From Nitrospirota bacterium (GTDB taxonomy: Bacteria; Nitrospirota; Thermodesulfovibrionia; UBA6902), in assembly GCA_016214845.1 (NCBI GenBank), contig JACRMS010000004.1, forward strand, positions 1-59,597: DNA of 59,597 nucleotides, written 5' to 3'. A program made the position numbers and the translations under genes. The notes beneath the pieces are model-generated. The model was not told where the DNA came from. It worked only from the letters and a program-made list of their open reading frames with translations, and searched no databases. Shown here piece after piece: positions 7,519 to 30,928 of the stretch; position 1 is the first letter of the stretch; each line of letters begins with the position of its first letter.

Positions 7519-10500
7519 ATGCTTCTAAAGCTTACGCGCAAGACATTAATGATTTCTGTCAGCATCGCTTTCACCTTATTATCGGGTGCCATCTCTTTTG
7601 CCGAAACAATTAATTACGTCTACGACGATCTGAACCGGCTGACGCGGATAGAGTTAGAGGATGGGGCCAAGGTTAATTACTTCTATGATGAGGTTGGTAA
7701 TAGACTGGAAGTAATGCGGGACAGCGACGGAGACGAAATGCCTGACAGATGGGAAGCTATCAACGGTCTAAACCTCAACGATCCTACCGATGCAGGGTAT
7801 GATTACGACAATGACGGGTTTAGCAATCTGGAAGAGTATCGGCAAGGGACACATCCGGCGGAGAGCATACAGTGTGTGGATTGCCCGAGGAATTATTCGT
7901 CCAGTTATCCTGTTTCTACCCGCGCCATTGCGATAGACAATATGAACAGACCTCATATCGCATATGGCGGAGACCATCTCTATCATGCTTATTATGATGG
8001 AACAACATGGAGGTATCAGACGGTTGACAGTTCACCGGGAGTTGGCCAATATGCCTCCATCGCTATAGATTCAAATAACAGTGTGCATATCAGTTATCAT
8101 GACGGGTATCGCCTCAAATATGCCACAAATGCCTCAGGCTCATGGAATATTTCCACAATAGACTCAACACCAGGTGTGGGACAATATACTTCCATCGCTG
8201 TAGATTCAAATAACAGGGTGCATATCAGTTACTATGACTATTCCAACAGCGACCTTAAATATGCGACGAATGAATCAGGCTCATGGGTTGCTTATAAGAT
8301 AAATCCAACAGGTGATGTTGGATCATACAGCTCCATAGCTGTAGATTCAAACAACAGGGTGCATATTAGTTATTCTGAACAATTTGTTGTTAATCTTCAT
8401 GTTGACTATGATCTCAAGTATGCGACGAATGCTTCAGGCTCATGGGTTGTTTCAACAATTGATACGGCAGGGAGTGTAGGACAATACTCTTCCATAGCAG
8501 TGGATTCCAACAATAAGGCGCATATCGGCTACTATGACTGGGACAATGGCGATCTTAAATATGCCACAAACTTATCTGGGACATGGACTATATCTGTAAT
8601 AGATTCAACAGGGTATGTGGGACAGTATTCCTCCATTGCTACAGATTCCGATAACGAAGTTCATATCAGCTATTATGATTACACGAATAGTGATCTTAAA
8701 TATGCGACAAATGAATCAGGCTCATGGGTTGTTTACACGATAAATTCAGCAGGGGATGTTGGTACATATAGCTCTATTACCATAGATTCAAACAAGAAGG
8801 CGCATATCGGTTACTATGATTCCACAAACGGGAATATCAAATACGCAACTAACACCTCCGGCTTTTGGGTGTTATCAGCGGTGGATTCGATAGGGGCAAG
8901 TGTAGGTTATTATTCCTCTATCGCAATAGATTTAAACAAGAAGGCGCATATCAGTTATTATGATTACACTAATAGTGATCTCAAATACGCTACCAATGCA
9001 TCTGGGGCATGGGTTACATCTACAATAGATGCAACGGGATATGTGGGACAAACTCCCTCCATAGCCACAGATTCAAACAACAAGATTCATATTAGTTACT
9101 ATGACGGGCCCTTTAACTATAACCTCAAGTATGCCACCAATGCCTCGGGCACATGGGTTATATCTGTAATAGATTCAGAGGGAGACGTGGGGGCATATTC
9201 TTCTATAACCATTGATTCTAACAATAAGGTTCATATCAGTTATTTAGACGCCACCAACTATGACCTTAAGTACGCCACCAATGCCTCAGGTTCATGGGTT
9301 ATATCAACAATAGATTCAGCAGGGTATGTGGGAGCATATTCTTCCATAGGCATAGATTCAAACAACCGGTTGCATATCAGTTACTTTGATTCTACAAATG
9401 CCTACCTCAAATACGCCACTAACGCTTCAGGCTCATGGGTTATTTCAATGGTTGATTCTATTGATTATGTTGGAGACTATAGCTCGATAGCGGTTGATTC
9501 AAACAATAAGGCGCATATCAGTTATTATGACTGGAATAAGTGCGTTCTCAAATATGCTACAAATGCGTCAGGCTCATGGGTTGCTATGATAGCTGATGGT
9601 GATGGTGCTTGTATGGAAGATGTAGGCAGGCACAGTTCTATCGCCATAGACTCAAACAACAATATACATATCAGTTATTCGGGTGCTGGCCGCCTTAAAT
9701 ATGCTGTACGCACTTCAGGTTCGTGGGTAGTTTCCACTATAGATTCCTCAGGAGCGTATACCTCCATAGCTGTAGATTCAAACAACAGCGTGCATATAAG
9801 TTATTCAAGGTCCGTTAGAGATGGTTATTTTAGCAGCAATGGAGAATTGGCGTATTTCACAAACTTTGTCAACAACTCGCCCGCTGCAAATCCCGGAGGT
9901 CCATATTCTGGAGTTGAAGGTCAGGTAATAACTTTTAACGGCTCAGGCTCTATCGATATTGGCGGAAGCATAGTGCTTTATGAATGGGACATAAATAATG
10001 ACGGAACGTATGATTATTATTCTTCATCCCCGGCTCAAAGCCACACCTATACACAACAAGGTGCATTTACTGTTAAACTGAGAGTCACTGACAATAACGG
10101 CACAACAAATGAGGCACAGACAAACGTTAACATTTCAGATACTTCTCCAGCAGCATCAATTACAGTGTTGCCGGGGTCAGGCATAGAGCCTCTTACTGTA
10201 AGTCTTACAGATGCATCCACTGCATATGATGGAACAGTATCCCGCTCTTGGAATTTCGGAGACGGAAGTCCGGGTAACTCTGAAGTCTCGGTACCTCATG
10301 TTTACGCACGGAATGGTGCATACACCGTCACTCTTTCAGTAACAGATGGTGACGGTTCAGCCACCGTAAAAACAGAACTTGTAACTGTCAACGATGCGTT
10401 ACCGACAGCAAATTTTACAGCATCACCGACAAGTGGAATCGCTCCTTTGATAGTGAATTTTACCGATCAATCCACAGGCTATGATCAACCGTTCACCTAC

Positions 10501-10950
10501 TTGTGGGATTTCGATAATAACGACACTATTGATTCAACCGATCAGAATCCTCAATACATGTATTCAACTACAGGCACTTACACGGTAAAGCTTACCGTCA
10601 CGGATTCGGACGGGAGCACGAATACGCTGATACGGTCAAATTATATAACGGTAACCCCATCTTGTTTACAGCCCGCAAGAATAATGAGAGCCGCAACTGT
10701 TATCAGCTATTACACCACACTTCAGTCCGCCTACGACGCGGCAGTTGACGGAGATATCATTCAGAGCCAAGTGGTGCTATTTATAGAAAACCTTATTATC
10801 AATGACCCGGCTACTCCAGGCAAAGCGGTTACATTCGAGGGCGGATATGATTGCGGTTATACAAACAAGACTGGGAATACCGAGTTAAAAGGGCAAGTGA
10901 CAAACAGTAAAGGGATTGTCAAACTTAAAAACTTTGTAATTAAAAAATAA
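7519..10950 (+). CDS. Secreted 14-repeat propeller-like protein with three PKD domains
   Basis: 1143 residues. Signal peptide of about 28 residues (cleavage after 'SGAISFA'), two YD-type units, then an Asp-rich segment ('DSDGDEMPDRW', 'DYDNDGFSNLEEY') typical of thrombospondin-3/EF-like calcium loops. Residues about 130-780 hold one degenerate and 13 clear copies of a 47-residue unit (YSSIAIDSNNKVHISYYD ... LKYATNASGSWV). Fourteen such beta-rich units could fold as two seven-bladed propellers; this is inference from the count. Three PKD domains follow (about 790-1055; 'WDINNDG', 'WNFGDGS', 'WDFDNND' motifs). The C-terminal 90 residues ('LQSAYDAAVDGDII') resemble the start of a parallel beta-helix. 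Probably an adhesin or surface-binding protein; no enzyme motif seen. The nucleotide repeats of about 141 bp are a likely site of copy-number change. Confidence 0.8.
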   Translation: MLLKLTRKTLMISVSIAFTLLSGAISFAETINYVYDDLNRLTRIELEDGAKVNYFYDEVGNRLEVMRDSDGDEMPDRWEAINGLNLNDPTDAGYDYDNDGFSNLEEYRQGTHPAESIQCVDCPRNYSSSYPVSTRAIAIDNMNRPHIAYGGDHLYHAYYDGTTWRYQTVDSSPGVGQYASIAIDSNNSVHISYHDGYRLKYATNASGSWNISTIDSTPGVGQYTSIAVDSNNRVHISYYDYSNSDLKYATNESGSWVAYKINPTGDVGSYSSIAVDSNNRVHISYSEQFVVNLHVDYDLKYATNASGSWVVSTIDTAGSVGQYSSIAVDSNNKAHIGYYDWDNGDLKYATNLSGTWTISVIDSTGYVGQYSSIATDSDNEVHISYYDYTNSDLKYATNESGSWVVYTINSAGDVGTYSSITIDSNKKAHIGYYDSTNGNIKYATNTSGFWVLSAVDSIGASVGYYSSIAIDLNKKAHISYYDYTNSDLKYATNASGAWVTSTIDATGYVGQTPSIATDSNNKIHISYYDGPFNYNLKYATNASGTWVISVIDSEGDVGAYSSITIDSNNKVHISYLDATNYDLKYATNASGSWVISTIDSAGYVGAYSSIGIDSNNRLHISYFDSTNAYLKYATNASGSWVISMVDSIDYVGDYSSIAVDSNNKAHISYYDWNKCVLKYATNASGSWVAMIADGDGACMEDVGRHSSIAIDSNNNIHISYSGAGRLKYAVRTSGSWVVSTIDSSGAYTSIAVDSNNSVHISYSRSVRDGYFSSNGELAYFTNFVNNSPAANPGGPYSGVEGQVITFNGSGSIDIGGSIVLYEWDINNDGTYDYYSSSPAQSHTYTQQGAFTVKLRVTDNNGTTNEAQTNVNISDTSPAASITVLPGSGIEPLTVSLTDASTAYDGTVSRSWNFGDGSPGNSEVSVPHVYARNGAYTVTLSVTDGDGSATVKTELVTVNDALPTANFTASPTSGIAPLIVNFTDQSTGYDQPFTYLWDFDNNDTIDSTDQNPQYMYSTTGTYTVKLTVTDSDGSTNTLIRSNYITVTPSCLQPARIMRAATVISYYTTLQSAYDAAVDGDIIQSQVVLFIENLIINDPATPGKAVTFEGGYDCGYTNKTGNTELKGQVTNSKGIVKLKNFVIKK

Positions 10951-14688: not shown

Positions 14689-14710
14689 GTATGACCTCCC
14701 AATATATTTT

Positions 14711-14781
14711 TAGGGGTTAGGGATTGGGGGTTAGGGGTCGGTAAAAAAAACCAAACCCTGATCCCCAATCCCCAATCCCTG
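14711..14781. repeat. Heptamer hairpin element A
   Basis: Left arm TAGGGGT TAGGGAT TGGGGGT TAGGGGT and right arm ACCCTGA TCCCCAA TCCCCAA TCCCTG are each degenerate 7-nt tandem repeats. The 31-nt arms pair around an A-rich loop (about 14742-14750); most differences are transitions. On the minus strand it starts 4 nt after the stop of the 14786-15373 gene and ends 22 nt before the NuoG-like start. Confidence 0.8.
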
Positions 14782-14785
14782 TTTT

Positions 14786-20288: not shown

Positions 20289-20303
20289 ATAACCTCCATT
20301 TAA

Positions 20304-20370
20304 AGGGGTTGGGGATTAGGGATTGGGGATTAGTTTTTACTAACCCCTGACCCCTAACCGCTAATCCCTG
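20304..20370. repeat. Heptamer hairpin element C
   Basis: AGGGGTT GGGGATT AGGGATT GGGGATT AGT (20304-20334) pairs with ACTAACC CCTGACC CCTAACC GCTAATC CCTG (20339-20370) around a 4-nt loop. It starts 3 nt after the acsB stop (20374-20376) and lies 15 nt above the acsA start. Its repeat words (GGGATTA/GGGATTG) are shared with elements A and G. Confidence 0.8.
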
Positions 20371-23227: not shown

Positions 23228-24571
23228 TCAGGCGACGCGGCCTTTCAAGAACGTCGGGATGGCGTTCGCCTCTCTCGGTCCTACCGTGATCTTCCATCCC
23301 TCAAGCTTGTCTTCAAGCGCCCCGCTGAGGATGGCGACCTGCCCGGGAATAATGAGTTCCTTATGCTTTATCTGGCCTTCAATTCCGCTGTCTTTTATGA
23401 ACTGCGCTATCTTTGCAGCGGTGAACTTGCCCGCTGCCCATGCCGTGAGCACCGAAAGTCCCTCGGAGTCCATAACGGCAAGACGGCTTGGGACCTTGCT
23501 GTTTTCTATTTCGCCTGAAACTATAAAGTATGTCAGCGAGAAATTGGTTGTTATCATCAGGGGCGACTCAGCGGTCGGTTCACCGATATTGTAAATCTTC
23601 TGCTCAACCTGCATCGGCACCTGCGGGTCAGTGTATATATTCTGTCTCAATGTGAACAGCACAAGGTTCTTCCATTTCTCTATGCTGCTGAGAATAACAA
23701 TTGAGGCATACTTGGCGATAGCTACAGATGCAATGGTCGCTTCGAGAATGGAATCCTCGCGTATCACGCAGTTAAGGACAGGGAACCCGAGCGGTTTAAA
23801 ACCTTTCTTAAGCGCTGACCGTCTGATTTGTGTGTTGTGCTCGAGGATCTCTTTTGCCGAATTTGCTCCGGAGTCAAGCACAATATCATTTACACCCAGC
23901 CCCTGTAATTTTTCCGTAAGCGCGCTCAAAGCCTCAAGACCCTGCGCGCTGGCGCAGAGCGGGACACCGTGTGTCTTGGCGATCTTTGCCATTGCGTCAG
24001 CGTTCTCATTAGTAGCGGCGTAGATGAGGGGCTTGCGTGCTGCAATTACCTTGACTGCAGCTTCTGCAGCGGCAGCGTCCTTGCAGTTCAGTATGATCGC
24101 AGCAGCAGGGGCCTTTTCAGCTACAAGTTTCACGGCCTTTTCATATTGCGCGCTGTTGTTTGATGCATATTCAATAGAGATGGCGTCAACTCTGAGCTTC
24201 TGTCCTACGCGGTTCAGTTCAGAGGTCGCGACCCCGGTCGCATTTTTTACAAGCTCATCATCGCTGAGGCTGTCTTTTATATTAATTGCCAACGCGCATG
24301 GATTGAAGAATTTTTTGTCATGCCTGAAAAGCACGGTCTCTCCGCCAAGCTTCACCGCAGTGTCTCCGGCGCCGAGAGCAAAGGTCCTTATCGGCGGGGC
24401 AGAGGCTTCGCCGAGGGTCTTTTTTGCTTCCTCTGAGACATCGGGACATTTTTCAAGCGCTATCTTGCCCTGGGCGAGCGACATTGCAAACGCAAGGCAG
24501 GTGGGAAAACCGCATTTTTTGCAGTTTGTCTTGGGGAGAAATTTAAATATCTGAACACCGGTTAATGCCAT
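23228..24571 (-). CDS. acsC: Corrinoid iron-sulfur protein large subunit
   Basis: 447 residues, the usual family length. The N-terminal [4Fe-4S] domain begins 'KTNCKKCGFPTC' with a fourth Cys near residue 42 ('EKCPDV'). A TIM barrel and a C-terminal Rossmann-type B12-binding domain follow. The protein carries the methyl group on its cobamide from AcsE to the A-cluster of AcsB, partnered by AcsD. GGAGG precedes the start. The downstream gene order acsC-fur-acsB is unusual because a regulator separates the methyl carrier from the synthase. Confidence 0.97.
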   Translation of the reverse strand: MALTGVQIFKFLPKTNCKKCGFPTCLAFAMSLAQGKIALEKCPDVSEEAKKTLGEASAPPIRTFALGAGDTAVKLGGETVLFRHDKKFFNPCALAINIKDSLSDDELVKNATGVATSELNRVGQKLRVDAISIEYASNNSAQYEKAVKLVAEKAPAAAIILNCKDAAAAEAAVKVIAARKPLIYAATNENADAMAKIAKTHGVPLCASAQGLEALSALTEKLQGLGVNDIVLDSGANSAKEILEHNTQIRRSALKKGFKPLGFPVLNCVIREDSILEATIASVAIAKYASIVILSSIEKWKNLVLFTLRQNIYTDPQVPMQVEQKIYNIGEPTAESPLMITTNFSLTYFIVSGEIENSKVPSRLAVMDSEGLSVLTAWAAGKFTAAKIAQFIKDSGIEGQIKHKELIIPGQVAILSGALEDKLEGWKITVGPREANAIPTFLKGRVA

Positions 24572-24587
24572 TTTGATCCTCCGTAAA

Positions 24588-24660
24588 TTAGTAGTAAGTA
24601 GTCAGTAGTCAAGGAATGGATCAGGACTTTTCGCCTAACTACTTGCTACTAACTACTGTC
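24588..24660. repeat. Heptamer hairpin element E
   Basis: TTAGTAG TAAGTAG TCAGTAG TCAAGG (24588-24614) pairs with CCTAACT ACTTGCT ACTAACT ACTGTC (24634-24660). Period 7 in both arms. It starts 6 nt after the acsD stop and sits above the acsC Shine-Dalgarno. Same words as element B. Confidence 0.8.
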
Positions 24661-25624: not shown

Positions 25625-25705
25625 TTAAGCAATCAGCTTTAAGCTCTCAGCGATCAGCTTAAGAATTTTCTTAGCTGACTGCTGAATGCTGACCGCTGAT
25701 AGCTG
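25625..25705. repeat. Heptamer hairpin element F
   Basis: TTAAGCA ATCAGCT TTAAGCT CTCAGCG ATCAGCT (25625-25659) faces TTAGCTG ACTGCTG AATGCTG ACCGCTG ATAGCTG (25671-25705). AGC recurs exactly every 7 nt, five times in each arm. It starts 3 nt after the acsE stop. Confidence 0.85.
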
Positions 25706-25708
25706 TTT

Positions 25709-27623: not shown

Positions 27624-27690
27624 GGGGGGTTAGTAGTTAGGGATTGGGGATTAGTAAAAAACCAACCCCTGACCCCTAATCCCTAATCCC
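27624..27690. repeat. Heptamer hairpin element G, containing the ccoI stop
   Basis: GGGGGTT AGTAGTT AGGGATT GGGGATT AGT (27625-27655) pairs with CCAACCC CTGACCC CTAATCC CTAATCC CG (27662-27690). The ccoI stop (27676-27678) lies within the right arm: its last codons read GGG ATT AGG GAT TAG, so the element encodes the terminal 'GIRD' and the stop. Confidence 0.8.
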
Positions 27691-30168
27691 GTCTGTTATC
27701 CTCCTTATCCGAAGAGAGTTCCCTACAACAAAAAGAGAGCTCGCTGCCATTGCCCCTGCGGCGACAATGGGGTGAAGAACTCCAAGGACCGCCAGCGGGA
27801 TTGCAACCACATTATAGAAAAACGACCAGAAGATATTCTGTTTTATAATTGAGTATGTCCTTTTGGAAAGACCAATAAAGTATGGAATAAGCTTCAGGTC
27901 GTTTCTGACCAGCACCGCGTCAGCGCTCTCCATCGCGATGTCCGTTCCGCGCCCCATTGCCATTCCTACTGATGCCTCTGTCAGCGCAGGCGCGTCATTG
28001 ATGCCATCACCTGCCATTAAAACGCGGCCGCCTCTATTCTGAATATTCTCAATTACATCTTTCTTTTTCACCGGCAATGCCTCTGATATTGCGTTATTAA
28101 CCCCAACCGCCGACGCTATTGAGTCAGTGGTTGTTTTATTGTCACCGCTTATAATAAACGTCTCAAGATTCATCCCATTAAGTTTATTCACCGCCTCCAA
28201 CGCTTCAACTCTAATAACATCGGAGATTACAAATACCGCCCTCACTGTTTTGTCCCACGCCATATAAACAACTGTATCGCCGTTTCTCTCAAATTGCAAT
28301 ATGTTTTCATTCAGAAACTCCGTCCCTGAATTATTCTCATTCATAAAAATCCTGTTGCCGATGAACATTCTTTTACCGTCTGCTGTCCCCTCAACGCCTT
28401 TTCCTGTTGTCGCCCTGAATTCTGAAACATTAAATTGTTCAAGCCCCTTTGCCGCCTCTGTTATTGCGTGTCCTATGCTGTGCTCCGACAGTCTTTCAAT
28501 AGAAGCTGCAAGCGATATGACGTGTTCTTTATTTACATTGTTATCTAAAACGACAACTTCCTTCAGCACGGGTTTGCCGATTGTTATGGTGCCTGTCTTG
28601 TCAAATATCACGCCGGTCAATCTGCTCGCATTCTCGATCACGTCGCCGCCCTTGATCAATACCCCTTTTGATGACGCCATGGTTGTAAACATCATAACAG
28701 ACAACGGGGTTGCAAGCCCCAGACTGCAAGGACACGCAATAACAAGCACTGAGATGCCTGTCATCAATGCGAGCTGCGCCGGCGCGCCGTTCAATAGATA
28801 AAACACGACTGTCAACGCGGATATTATCAGCACAGCGGGAACAAAGACGCCGACAATCCTGTCTGCCAGCCTTTGTATGTGAGGCTTCTTGTTCTGCGCG
28901 TCTTCAACAGCTTTGATAATGCCGGACAGCACGGTCTCTTTCCCTGTTGCGGTAACTTCAAATACCAGCGAGCCGTAAAGGTTCATGCTCCCTCCGATAA
29001 CTTTTGAACCGGAGGTCTTCATAACAGGCCTTGATTCACCGGTAATAAGAGACTCGTCAACTTCTGACTCGCCGCTGATCACGTTCCCGTCCAACGGGAT
29101 TTTTTCACCAGGAATGACCTGAATCAGGTCTCCCTTATTGATTGAGGAAACAGGAACTGTATCTGTGTTCTGTGTTCTGTCTTCTGTACTCTGTCTTAAA
29201 ACTCTGGCCTCTTTCGGCGTCAGTCCCGATAATTTTTCAATCGCCTCCGAGGCCTTGCCTTTTGCGTTTACCTCAATATATCTTCCAAGCAGTATCAGAG
29301 TTATTATCATTGCCGATGTATCAAAATAGACCTTGCCGCCGGTCCGCATCTGGTAGATGCTGTATATAAATGCCGAACCTGCGCCAATGGTAATAAGTGA
29401 GTCCATGTTGAAGCGCAGATTTCTTAAGCCGCTGATAGTCCCCTTAATAAAGGGCATACCTGAGTAAAAGATAACAGGGATAGTGATAAGCATCGCGATA
29501 CTTTCAAAAAGAAATTTGTCCTGTTGCTCGATACCCTGGAAATATCCCGCGTAAAGCGCAATGCTGAAAAGCATCAACTGTGACGACAGAAACCCGGCGG
29601 TCCCGAACCTGATGAGCAGGTCTCTTGCCTCTGCCCTTTGTGCCTTGAACCTTTCGGATTCAGAATAAGGTTTGGGAATGTAGCCAATGGATATTATCCT
29701 CTTGAGTATTTGCTCAAGGCCGACAAGCTCCGGCTGCCATCTTATTTTCGCTTTGTGGGTCGCATAGCTTACCTTCACATAATCAACGCCATTCAGCCTG
29801 CTCAATATTTTTTCATTCAGCCAGATGCATGACGCGCAGCGGACACCTTCTATGAAAATATCTATTTCCTTCTGTTGTCTGTGCTCTGTGCTCCGGGCTC
29901 TGTCTTCTGTCTTCTGTCTTCCGCCTTCAACATTCACGACATGTTCCGTAAAGGGTTTTATATCTATCTCTCCGGTAAGCAGGGATGCTGAGATGCCCGC
30001 GTCCTTCCACATCCTTTTTTCATAAAATTCGTCAAGCCCTTCTTCATGGATCAATCCGTATATGCCGCGGCAGCCGTTACAGCAAAATGTTTTTTTCATG
30101 CTGTCTATTTCGTCATAGACCGCTTCTCTTTCGGGGAATTCCAGCAGGCAGTGGTCGCATTTAAGCAT
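27676..30168 (-). CDS. ccoI: CcoI/CopA2-type copper P1B-ATPase
   Basis: 830 residues. N-terminal Cys-rich metal site ('CDHCLLEFPE', 'CCNGC'), one HMA domain ('GVRCASCIW', about 105-165), eight predicted helices, the CPC copper motif ('VIACPCSLGLATP'), the phosphorylation site 'DKTGTIT', 'ISGDN' and 'GDGINDAPAL'. The family exports Cu to the periplasm for cbb3 oxidase assembly and sits in ccoGHIS loci, as here. Two low-complexity heptamer-repeat tracts are read in frame: one in the linker before HMA and one in the actuator-domain region. The C terminus ends inside another such element. Start ATG 30168 overlaps the preceding gene by 8 nt. Confidence 0.95.
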   Translation of the reverse strand: MLKCDHCLLEFPEREAVYDEIDSMKKTFCCNGCRGIYGLIHEEGLDEFYEKRMWKDAGISASLLTGEIDIKPFTEHVVNVEGGRQKTEDRARSTEHRQQKEIDIFIEGVRCASCIWLNEKILSRLNGVDYVKVSYATHKAKIRWQPELVGLEQILKRIISIGYIPKPYSESERFKAQRAEARDLLIRFGTAGFLSSQLMLFSIALYAGYFQGIEQQDKFLFESIAMLITIPVIFYSGMPFIKGTISGLRNLRFNMDSLITIGAGSAFIYSIYQMRTGGKVYFDTSAMIITLILLGRYIEVNAKGKASEAIEKLSGLTPKEARVLRQSTEDRTQNTDTVPVSSINKGDLIQVIPGEKIPLDGNVISGESEVDESLITGESRPVMKTSGSKVIGGSMNLYGSLVFEVTATGKETVLSGIIKAVEDAQNKKPHIQRLADRIVGVFVPAVLIISALTVVFYLLNGAPAQLALMTGISVLVIACPCSLGLATPLSVMMFTTMASSKGVLIKGGDVIENASRLTGVIFDKTGTITIGKPVLKEVVVLDNNVNKEHVISLAASIERLSEHSIGHAITEAAKGLEQFNVSEFRATTGKGVEGTADGKRMFIGNRIFMNENNSGTEFLNENILQFERNGDTVVYMAWDKTVRAVFVISDVIRVEALEAVNKLNGMNLETFIISGDNKTTTDSIASAVGVNNAISEALPVKKKDVIENIQNRGGRVLMAGDGINDAPALTEASVGMAMGRGTDIAMESADAVLVRNDLKLIPYFIGLSKRTYSIIKQNIFWSFFYNVVAIPLAVLGVLHPIVAAGAMAASSLFVVGNSLRIRRITDGIRD
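29161..29201 (-). repeat. Heptamer tract H inside ccoI
   Basis: Plus-strand words ATCTGTG TTCTGTG TTCTGTC TTCTGTA CTCTGTC, with CTGT every 7 nt. On the coding strand it reads CAGNNNN heptamers and encodes a polar segment ('LRQSTEDRTQNTDT') just before 'VPVSSINKGDLIQV', at the edge of the ATPase actuator domain. No inverted second arm is present. Confidence 0.8.
29869..29924 (-). repeat. Heptamer tract I inside ccoI
   Basis: Eight plus-strand heptamers (TTCTGTT GTCTGTG CTCTGTG CTCCGGG CTCTGTC TTCTGTC TTCTGTC TTCCGCC). The coding strand reads 'GGRQKTEDRARSTEHRQQKE' in the linker between the N-terminal Cys site and the HMA domain. Same words as tract H; 56 nt with no stop in this frame. Confidence 0.8.
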
Positions 30169-30871: not shown

Positions 30872-30928
30872 AAACACTGAGGCACTGAGACACAGAGAAA
30901 AGCTCCGTGCCTCGGTGCCTCTGTGTTT
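30872..30928. repeat. Octamer hairpin element J
   Basis: The 26-nt arms 30872-30897 and 30903-30928 pair at 22 positions around a 5-nt loop. Words CACTGAGG CACTGAGA CACAGAG repeat every 8 nt rather than 7. It begins 6 nt after the stop of the gene ending at 30935, the same placement as the heptamer elements. Confidence 0.8.

Follow-up and report, generated by a model that had tools for sequence, protein, structure and literature searches.

Background

According to a paper on Xanthomonas and Nostoc, heptameric repeats had no detailed literature and their role was left open (PMC4692102). PMC4679880 and PMC4692102 report that in many bacteria heptanucleotides outnumber all other long simple repeats, attribute a proposal of slippage at 7 nt to Mrazek et al. 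2007, and mention a proposed polymerase contact of 7 nt. The cyanobacterial STRR repeats and the TAACTGA repeats of Beggiatoaceae are scattered, multi-copy heptanucleotide tandem arrays with a sporadic distribution between lineages; they are mostly intergenic and built of one word, with few in open reading frames (ORFs) and these mostly at protein ends (PMC4679880). The quadruplex heptamers of Xanthomonas and Nostoc, GGGNATC and GGGGA(C/T)T, often stand in about four units, vary in sequence and length between relatives at the same intergenic place, and are enriched in non-coding DNA but scarcer than expected in ORFs (PMC4692102). In Geobacter metallireducens, the passages on four-copy heptanucleotide elements describe GGGACCG, with 49 copies, and an MTYCTGA class, report copies inside genes, and annotate the elements as putative regulatory (PMC2700814).

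Two other kinds of repeat are also relevant, since they can lie within genes. The Rickettsia palindromic elements, in the part of the account that concerns us, are MITE-like palindromes of about 150 bp that encode conserved peptides, occur in frame in many unrelated metabolic genes and are tolerated by the proteins (PMC10969869). GTAG-tagged REP sequences are short palindromes, sometimes intragenic, that are linked to RAYT transposases and are not tandem heptamers (PMC3733652).

Here we describe period-7 arrays in the genome of an uncultured Nitrospirota bacterium, starting from a 59,597-nt stretch of one contig (the window). The arrays lie in frame, are concentrated in loops and restricted to lineages, and are uniform within an array while differing between relatives at the same site.

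Results

Two heptamer arrays within the ccoI frame

The window encodes, on the reverse strand at 27676-30168, a ccoI-like copper-type P-type ATPase of 830 aa with an intact frame, identified from the ORF, its translation and NCBIfam. The protein matches TIGR01525/TIGR01511 above cut-off and carries the HMA (CASC), TGES, CPC, DKTGT and GDGINDAP motifs; the catalytic motifs are invariant in the alignment, as in heavy-metal P-ATPases.

The original prediction of two heptamer tracts inside this frame, one in the linker before the HMA domain and one at the actuator domain, was borne out by the ORF, a lag-7 scan and TRF, with the positions now assigned to each. Array 1, in the pre-HMA linker, spans 29870-29936 on the reverse strand (about aa 77-99), and array 2, in a beta-hairpin turn of the actuator domain, spans 29158-29197 on the same strand (about aa 323-337). 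TRF, which is independent of the lag-7 scan, reports period 7 at 29157-29197 and 29878-29928. Both tracts are degenerate ANNACAG heptamers read in frame, as RQSTEDRTQNTD and GGRQKTEDRARSTEHRQQ; the coding-strand units are AAGACAG, AGTACAG, AAGACAG, AACACAG, AACACAG and, in the other tract, AAGACAG three times, AGCCCGG, AGCACAG twice and ACAACAG. Because 7 and 3 are coprime, each heptamer word is read in all three frames, which yields the seven-codon superperiod that had been predicted.

In an AlphaFold2 model built from 30 aligned sequences, residues 83-94 of tract 1 have pLDDT < 50, and tract 2 forms the turn between strands 320-326 and 333-339. As to the proposal that the tracts are insertions, the pre-HMA tract is extra sequence relative to ccoI of the same genus, and the actuator loop is no longer than that of human ATP7B.

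Abundance and vocabulary of period-7 arrays

The window's own genome (G000) is a 3.45 Mb draft in 41 contigs; judged by ccoI, it is closest to Nitrospirota MAGs of the Thermodesulfovibrionia/Nitrospirae kind. Searched by blastn, the ccoI region hit 37 other places in this genome, almost always through one of the two tracts, and a four-unit ACAG pattern matched 61 times whereas its reversed control matched 15 times. The lag-7 scan found 108 arrays in 460 kb, against none in dinucleotide-shuffled sequence and 0-17 at the other lags (4-13), which excludes a chance origin of the tracts; the sampling comprised 20 stretches of 20 kb, some of them chosen because they contain known ACAG hits, which probably inflates the density. 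An evenly spaced sample of 240 kb from G040, which is a single contig and belongs to a different family of the class, held 42 arrays, and 140 kb of two control genomes of the same class (G036 and G037) held none. A tandem period well above chance is shared with heptanucleotide long simple sequence repeats, but near-perfect identical units are not: units vary within arrays, as ANNACAG does in ccoI, and the arrays are degenerate.

The vocabulary is limited, and includes AAGACAG, AACACAG, AATCCCC, AACCCCT, AAGTCAG, AAAGGGC, ACCCGTC, AAGTGAG, AATGCGT and ACTGCTG among others. The single repeat family originally supposed is therefore a set of many heptamer words, although its presence in genes stands. 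The vocabulary is lineage-specific: the best 24-mer match scored 21.5 against ectopic arrays within the genome, 18.4 against G040 and 18.7 for shuffled words. Convergence on favoured words could be partly behind the sharing.

An opposite-strand array lies within 80 nt of 41 of the 108 arrays, forming hairpins, and the remainder are single. Such pairs are conspicuous in the window's intergenic spacers. There, inverted pairs occur at 14709-14783 (G-rich, TTAGGGG ... ATCCCCA; a different sequence in G006, a genome of the same genus), at 20303-20370 (GGGATTA/GGGATTG ... CTAACCC; an AGCTGAT-type hairpin in G006) and at 24584-24657 (AGTAGTC ... CTAACTA), and a hairpin of AGCTGAC/TGCTGAC-type heptamers occupies 25635-25707, its 25672-25707 arm being conserved in G006. 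A further array (CCCTAAT) lies at the 3' edge of ccoI, 27661-27694. Rfam and tRNA searches of the window gave no matches.

Other repeats were seen alongside these. Lag 8 is the second commonest short period in the genome sample, and the spacer at 30874-30925 holds an inverted pair of period-8 arrays (ACACTGAG / CTCCGTGC). A tandem repeat of period 141 (8.3 copies, 8405-9582) lies inside a 1143-aa ORF at 7519-10950, probably encoding a repeat-domain protein. Elsewhere in the genome, a dispersed repeat of ~155 bp at L056:3552-3706 (G000:C6 about 23552-23706) has >25 copies in G006 and is probably MITE-like, and a second dispersed repeat, L056:18891-19027, has several copies.

Arrays inside coding genes

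The expectation that other genes would carry in-frame tracts was borne out in the sample, where 41 of 379 ORFs contain arrays. Gene calls came from a simple ORF caller, and arrays near ORF ends may reflect over-extended starts; counts are therefore given separately for deep arrays, defined as >150 nt from the ORF ends, which number 54 of the 108. For the same reason an initial reading of every lag-7 array in an ORF as coding was tightened.

By Pfam, the hosts in G000 include PurL, CbiD, CbiG/tetrapyrrole methylase, Mur ligases, QueC, chorismate synthase, AcrB, LpxK, KdtA, CofH/MqnC, His_biosynth and GMP synthase (GuaA), with seven arrays in PurL, five in CbiD and three in chorismate synthase; in G040 they include EPSP synthase, DnaG, ribonucleotide reductase, UvrD and YbeY. 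Pfam domain matches run across or around the arrays in the core-enzyme ORFs of G000, and likewise in G040.

The coding arrays differ from the intergenic ones in two respects. The words are free of stop triplets on both strands in 37 of the 54 deep coding arrays and in none of the 19 intergenic arrays. Furthermore, between G000 and G006, which are ~90% identical in DNA and were compared over ~95 kb of G006, all 30 coding length differences are divisible by 3, unlike most of the intergenic ones (a tally from the site list, leaving out L057 16303, a difference of -62 near an ORF start that is possibly over-extended). Stop-free coding words and lengths in multiples of 3 are what frame selection in real genes would be expected to produce. 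An assembly artefact of metagenome bins deserves almost no credence: G000 is indeed a draft in 41 contigs, but the pattern recurs in many genomes of different projects and in single-contig G040, and coding frames are kept.

Could the arrays be functional nucleic-acid elements, that is, RNA or DNA binding sites or G-quadruplexes kept for regulation? Such a role has been proposed for the repeats of Geobacter and Beggiatoaceae and considered for those of Xanthomonas and Nostoc, in the relevant passages of PMC2700814, PMC4692102 and PMC4679880, and G-rich words such as GGGGATT could form G-quadruplexes. Against it, arrays are found in genes in both orientations (purine-rich on the coding strand in 31, on the template strand in 18), the host genes are functionally unrelated, and close relatives have different words at one and the same site. 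We regard a regulatory role as very unlikely.

The arrays are concentrated in tolerant surface loops and linkers. Chorismate synthase has three array sites, of which two fall at gaps in the alignment to 1q1l and the third adjoins a gap in the 1qxo alignment; at least two sites in PurL align to residues that are extra relative to the solved homologue 9n9w. This location, at the flexible sites that had been predicted, would also suit conserved functional linkers whose peptides are under protein-level selection. However, the alignments disfavour such linkers, as the residues of the same loop are entirely different between relatives, and we consider the idea very improbable; most likely the peptides that the arrays encode have no function of their own.

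The same loop holds different words in relatives

The actuator turn of ccoI holds AGCGGTC, GGCAAAG, GGGGCAA, AGAAGTC or AGGAGTC heptamers in relatives, or a GTAG-type palindrome, or nothing. Ordinary conservation of the protein, with identical residues written in unrelated codons, was not seen in these relatives: residues and codons both change.

The loops of PurL and chorismate synthase (AroC), compared in 20 relatives (up to 21 genomes), show the same behaviour on a larger scale; with ccoI, these were the three protein families compared in detail. Lag-7 arrays occur in 79 of 185 loop-genome cases, versus 2 of 189 in conserved PurL stretches, and the heptamer word usually differs per genome while being uniform within each array, even though the surrounding protein is conserved. 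At PurL aa 1012-1040, 16 genomes have a common 87-nt loop, mostly in the register RACTYNN, in which NN is near-uniform inside one genome and differs among genomes. Unit-to-unit identity in this loop is 0.84, and permuting the units across genomes lowers it to 0.61 +- 0.014; the corresponding values at aa 952-978 are 0.90 and 0.52. For these two loops the permuted maxima of 2000 runs (0.66 and 0.73) lie below the observed values. The homogenisation signal is weaker at aa 818-842, a loop with only five genomes, for which the highest permuted value and the observed one agree to two decimals. Insertion, as first proposed, is thus only part of the story, for old sites keep array length and register while the word changes. 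Other occupants of the PurL and AroC loops are palindromes of at least three kinds.

In two of the relatives, G008 and G005 (L011; L162/L165), an in-frame palindrome, GTAGGGGCAATTCATGAATTGCCCCTAC, was observed in ccoI and another, GTAGGGGCGATTCATGAATCGCCCCTAC, in PurL; both resemble GTAG-tagged REPs and occupy loops that carry heptamers in other genomes.

Turnover between G000 and G006 is uneven: some arrays are almost unchanged, many have given way to a palindrome or a different word, and other sites hold no array. A clear change of unit number by 7 nt was found at one compared site only (L051 5158).

These comparisons bear on ordinary simple sequence repeats as an explanation, in which local replication slippage is favoured at 7 nt and followed by decay through point mutation. 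Homogeneity within arrays fits such slippage, as do the abundance of heptanucleotides and the proposed polymerase contact noted above. Slippage accords poorly with PurL loops that retain their length and register under a new word, with the rarity of unit-number changes at the sites compared between G000 and G006, with a vocabulary that is genome-wide and lineage-specific, and with the frequency of inverted pairs. We judge slippage by itself to be an improbable cause.

A miniature mobile element, MITE- or REP-like and perhaps moved by a Y1 transposase, with heptamer arrays as its arms and the single arrays as its halves or remnants, would account for the many hairpin pairs, for the palindromes such as GTAGGGGCGATTCATGAATCGCCCCTAC in the same loops of relatives and for the existence of occupied and empty sites; Y1_Tnp genes are present in G000, G006, G008, G005 and G040. 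On the other side, the arrays have no fixed ends, recognised target duplication, or constant length or sequence, more than half of them are unpaired, and at old sites the word changes while the register stays. The occupied/empty or replaced sites inspected showed no recognisable target-site duplication, but they have also been remodelled. The chance of a mobile origin seems to us about as low as that of slippage. A fixed insertion size of 45 nt, hinted at by several occupied/empty pairs, was dropped when gap-aware alignments gave no sharp size peak.

Probable gene exchange between lineages

The pre-HMA array is absent from ccoI of the same genus, present in L080 and L010, and short in L059. 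In the ccoI tree, G000 and G006 group with L080, L059 and G040 (support 0.96), apart from the other genomes examined from their genus; therefore, the gene was probably exchanged laterally. The pre-HMA array is inherited within the nearest ccoI clade (L080, L010, L059) and probably arrived with the exchanged gene. Two irregular ccoI sequences were also encountered. In G040, the ORF of about 650 aa at L153:13661-15616 matches only residues 3-640 of the window protein and may be truncated or frameshifted. In G006, contig C31 starts within ccoI, but its first 135 bases (L021:1-135) have no counterpart in the gene; they lie near the expected position of the actuator-domain array, possibly at an assembly break.

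A probable recombination tract is visible in PurL as well. Over about aa 930-1045 the G006 protein resembles that of G007 at 84-91%, against a background near 78%, and in this stretch the G000-G006 identity falls from about 95% to 59-78%. At least one pair of PurL word swaps is best read as homologous exchange, and in situ rewriting as the sole cause of word swaps was dropped when this tract was seen. Since lateral exchange explains at least one such swap of dialect, the amount of in situ rewriting is uncertain.

Discussion

Proposed origin of the arrays

We consider it likely, with some reserve, that these genomes maintain a lineage-specific, degenerate heptanucleotide vocabulary in spacers and tolerant loops through ectopic spread, homogenisation, exchange and selection. 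The lineage specificity of the vocabulary is not predicted by purely local slippage, and we therefore infer ectopic spread together with homogenisation within arrays. Arrays would reach new sites by ectopic copying, for which ectopic template switching is a candidate step. Standing arrays would then be homogenised unit by unit at constant length, perhaps by transient 7-nt misalignment of the nascent strand or by conversion within the array, and some loops or whole genes would be swapped between lineages by homologous recombination. In genes, selection would keep only those outcomes that are free of stops, preserve the frame and are compatible with the fold. It counts against the proposal that this analysis identified no enzyme or intermediate for array spread and recognised no target duplication at the inspected sites.

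A more speculative version, which we offer tentatively and think doubtful, is that a lineage-specific process active in the class Thermodesulfovibrionia keeps rewriting weakly constrained DNA at a 7-nt periodicity, repeatedly overwriting surface loops of essential enzymes in constant register. Such rewriting would combine dislocation copying from unit to unit with ectopic templating, and, if real, would be a way for protein loops to evolve that has gone unrecognised until now.

The occurrence of species-specific words at the same core-enzyme loop, taken together with the frame and length data, makes it possible to tell slippage, insertion, homogenisation and recombination apart. Proteins such as PurL and chorismate synthase apparently tolerate segments that are repeatedly replaced, which bears on the evolution of surface loops. 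The arrays are also relevant to automatic gene calling and alignment in these genomes.

Comparison with known systems

Heptamer repeats and copies of them inside genes were already known. For their recurrent turnover in core-enzyme loops we found no parallel: our searches of the open-access literature gave no description of word turnover and homogenisation at orthologous core-enzyme loops, and a literature search for heptamers in Nitrospirae returned nothing relevant. The Geobacter metallireducens account, in its passages on these elements, is not about word turnover between relatives, location in loops or homogenisation (PMC2700814).

The arrays share with the Rickettsia elements the presence of in-frame repetitive DNA in many unrelated genes, here including core enzymes by Pfam. 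In place of palindromes with conserved peptides, however, they are mostly tandem arrays of 28-80 nt with variable words, and they lack the defined ends or inverted terminal repeats of such elements and of MITEs, only 41 of 108 being paired and no common ends being seen. Nor are they GTAG-tagged REPs, even though Y1_Tnp genes are present in the genome and some relatives have GTAG-initial palindromes in these PurL and ccoI loops. The G-rich words, such as GGGGATT, recall the quadruplex heptamers of Xanthomonas and Nostoc, but here they are a subset of the vocabulary, stand beside words that are not G-rich, and many lie in ORFs, where they also occur in frame. Finally, like the STRR and TAACTGA repeats, the arrays are scattered, multi-copy and sporadic between lineages; in contrast to those repeats, many words coexist here, most of the sampled arrays are in ORFs, and many lie deep within core enzymes.
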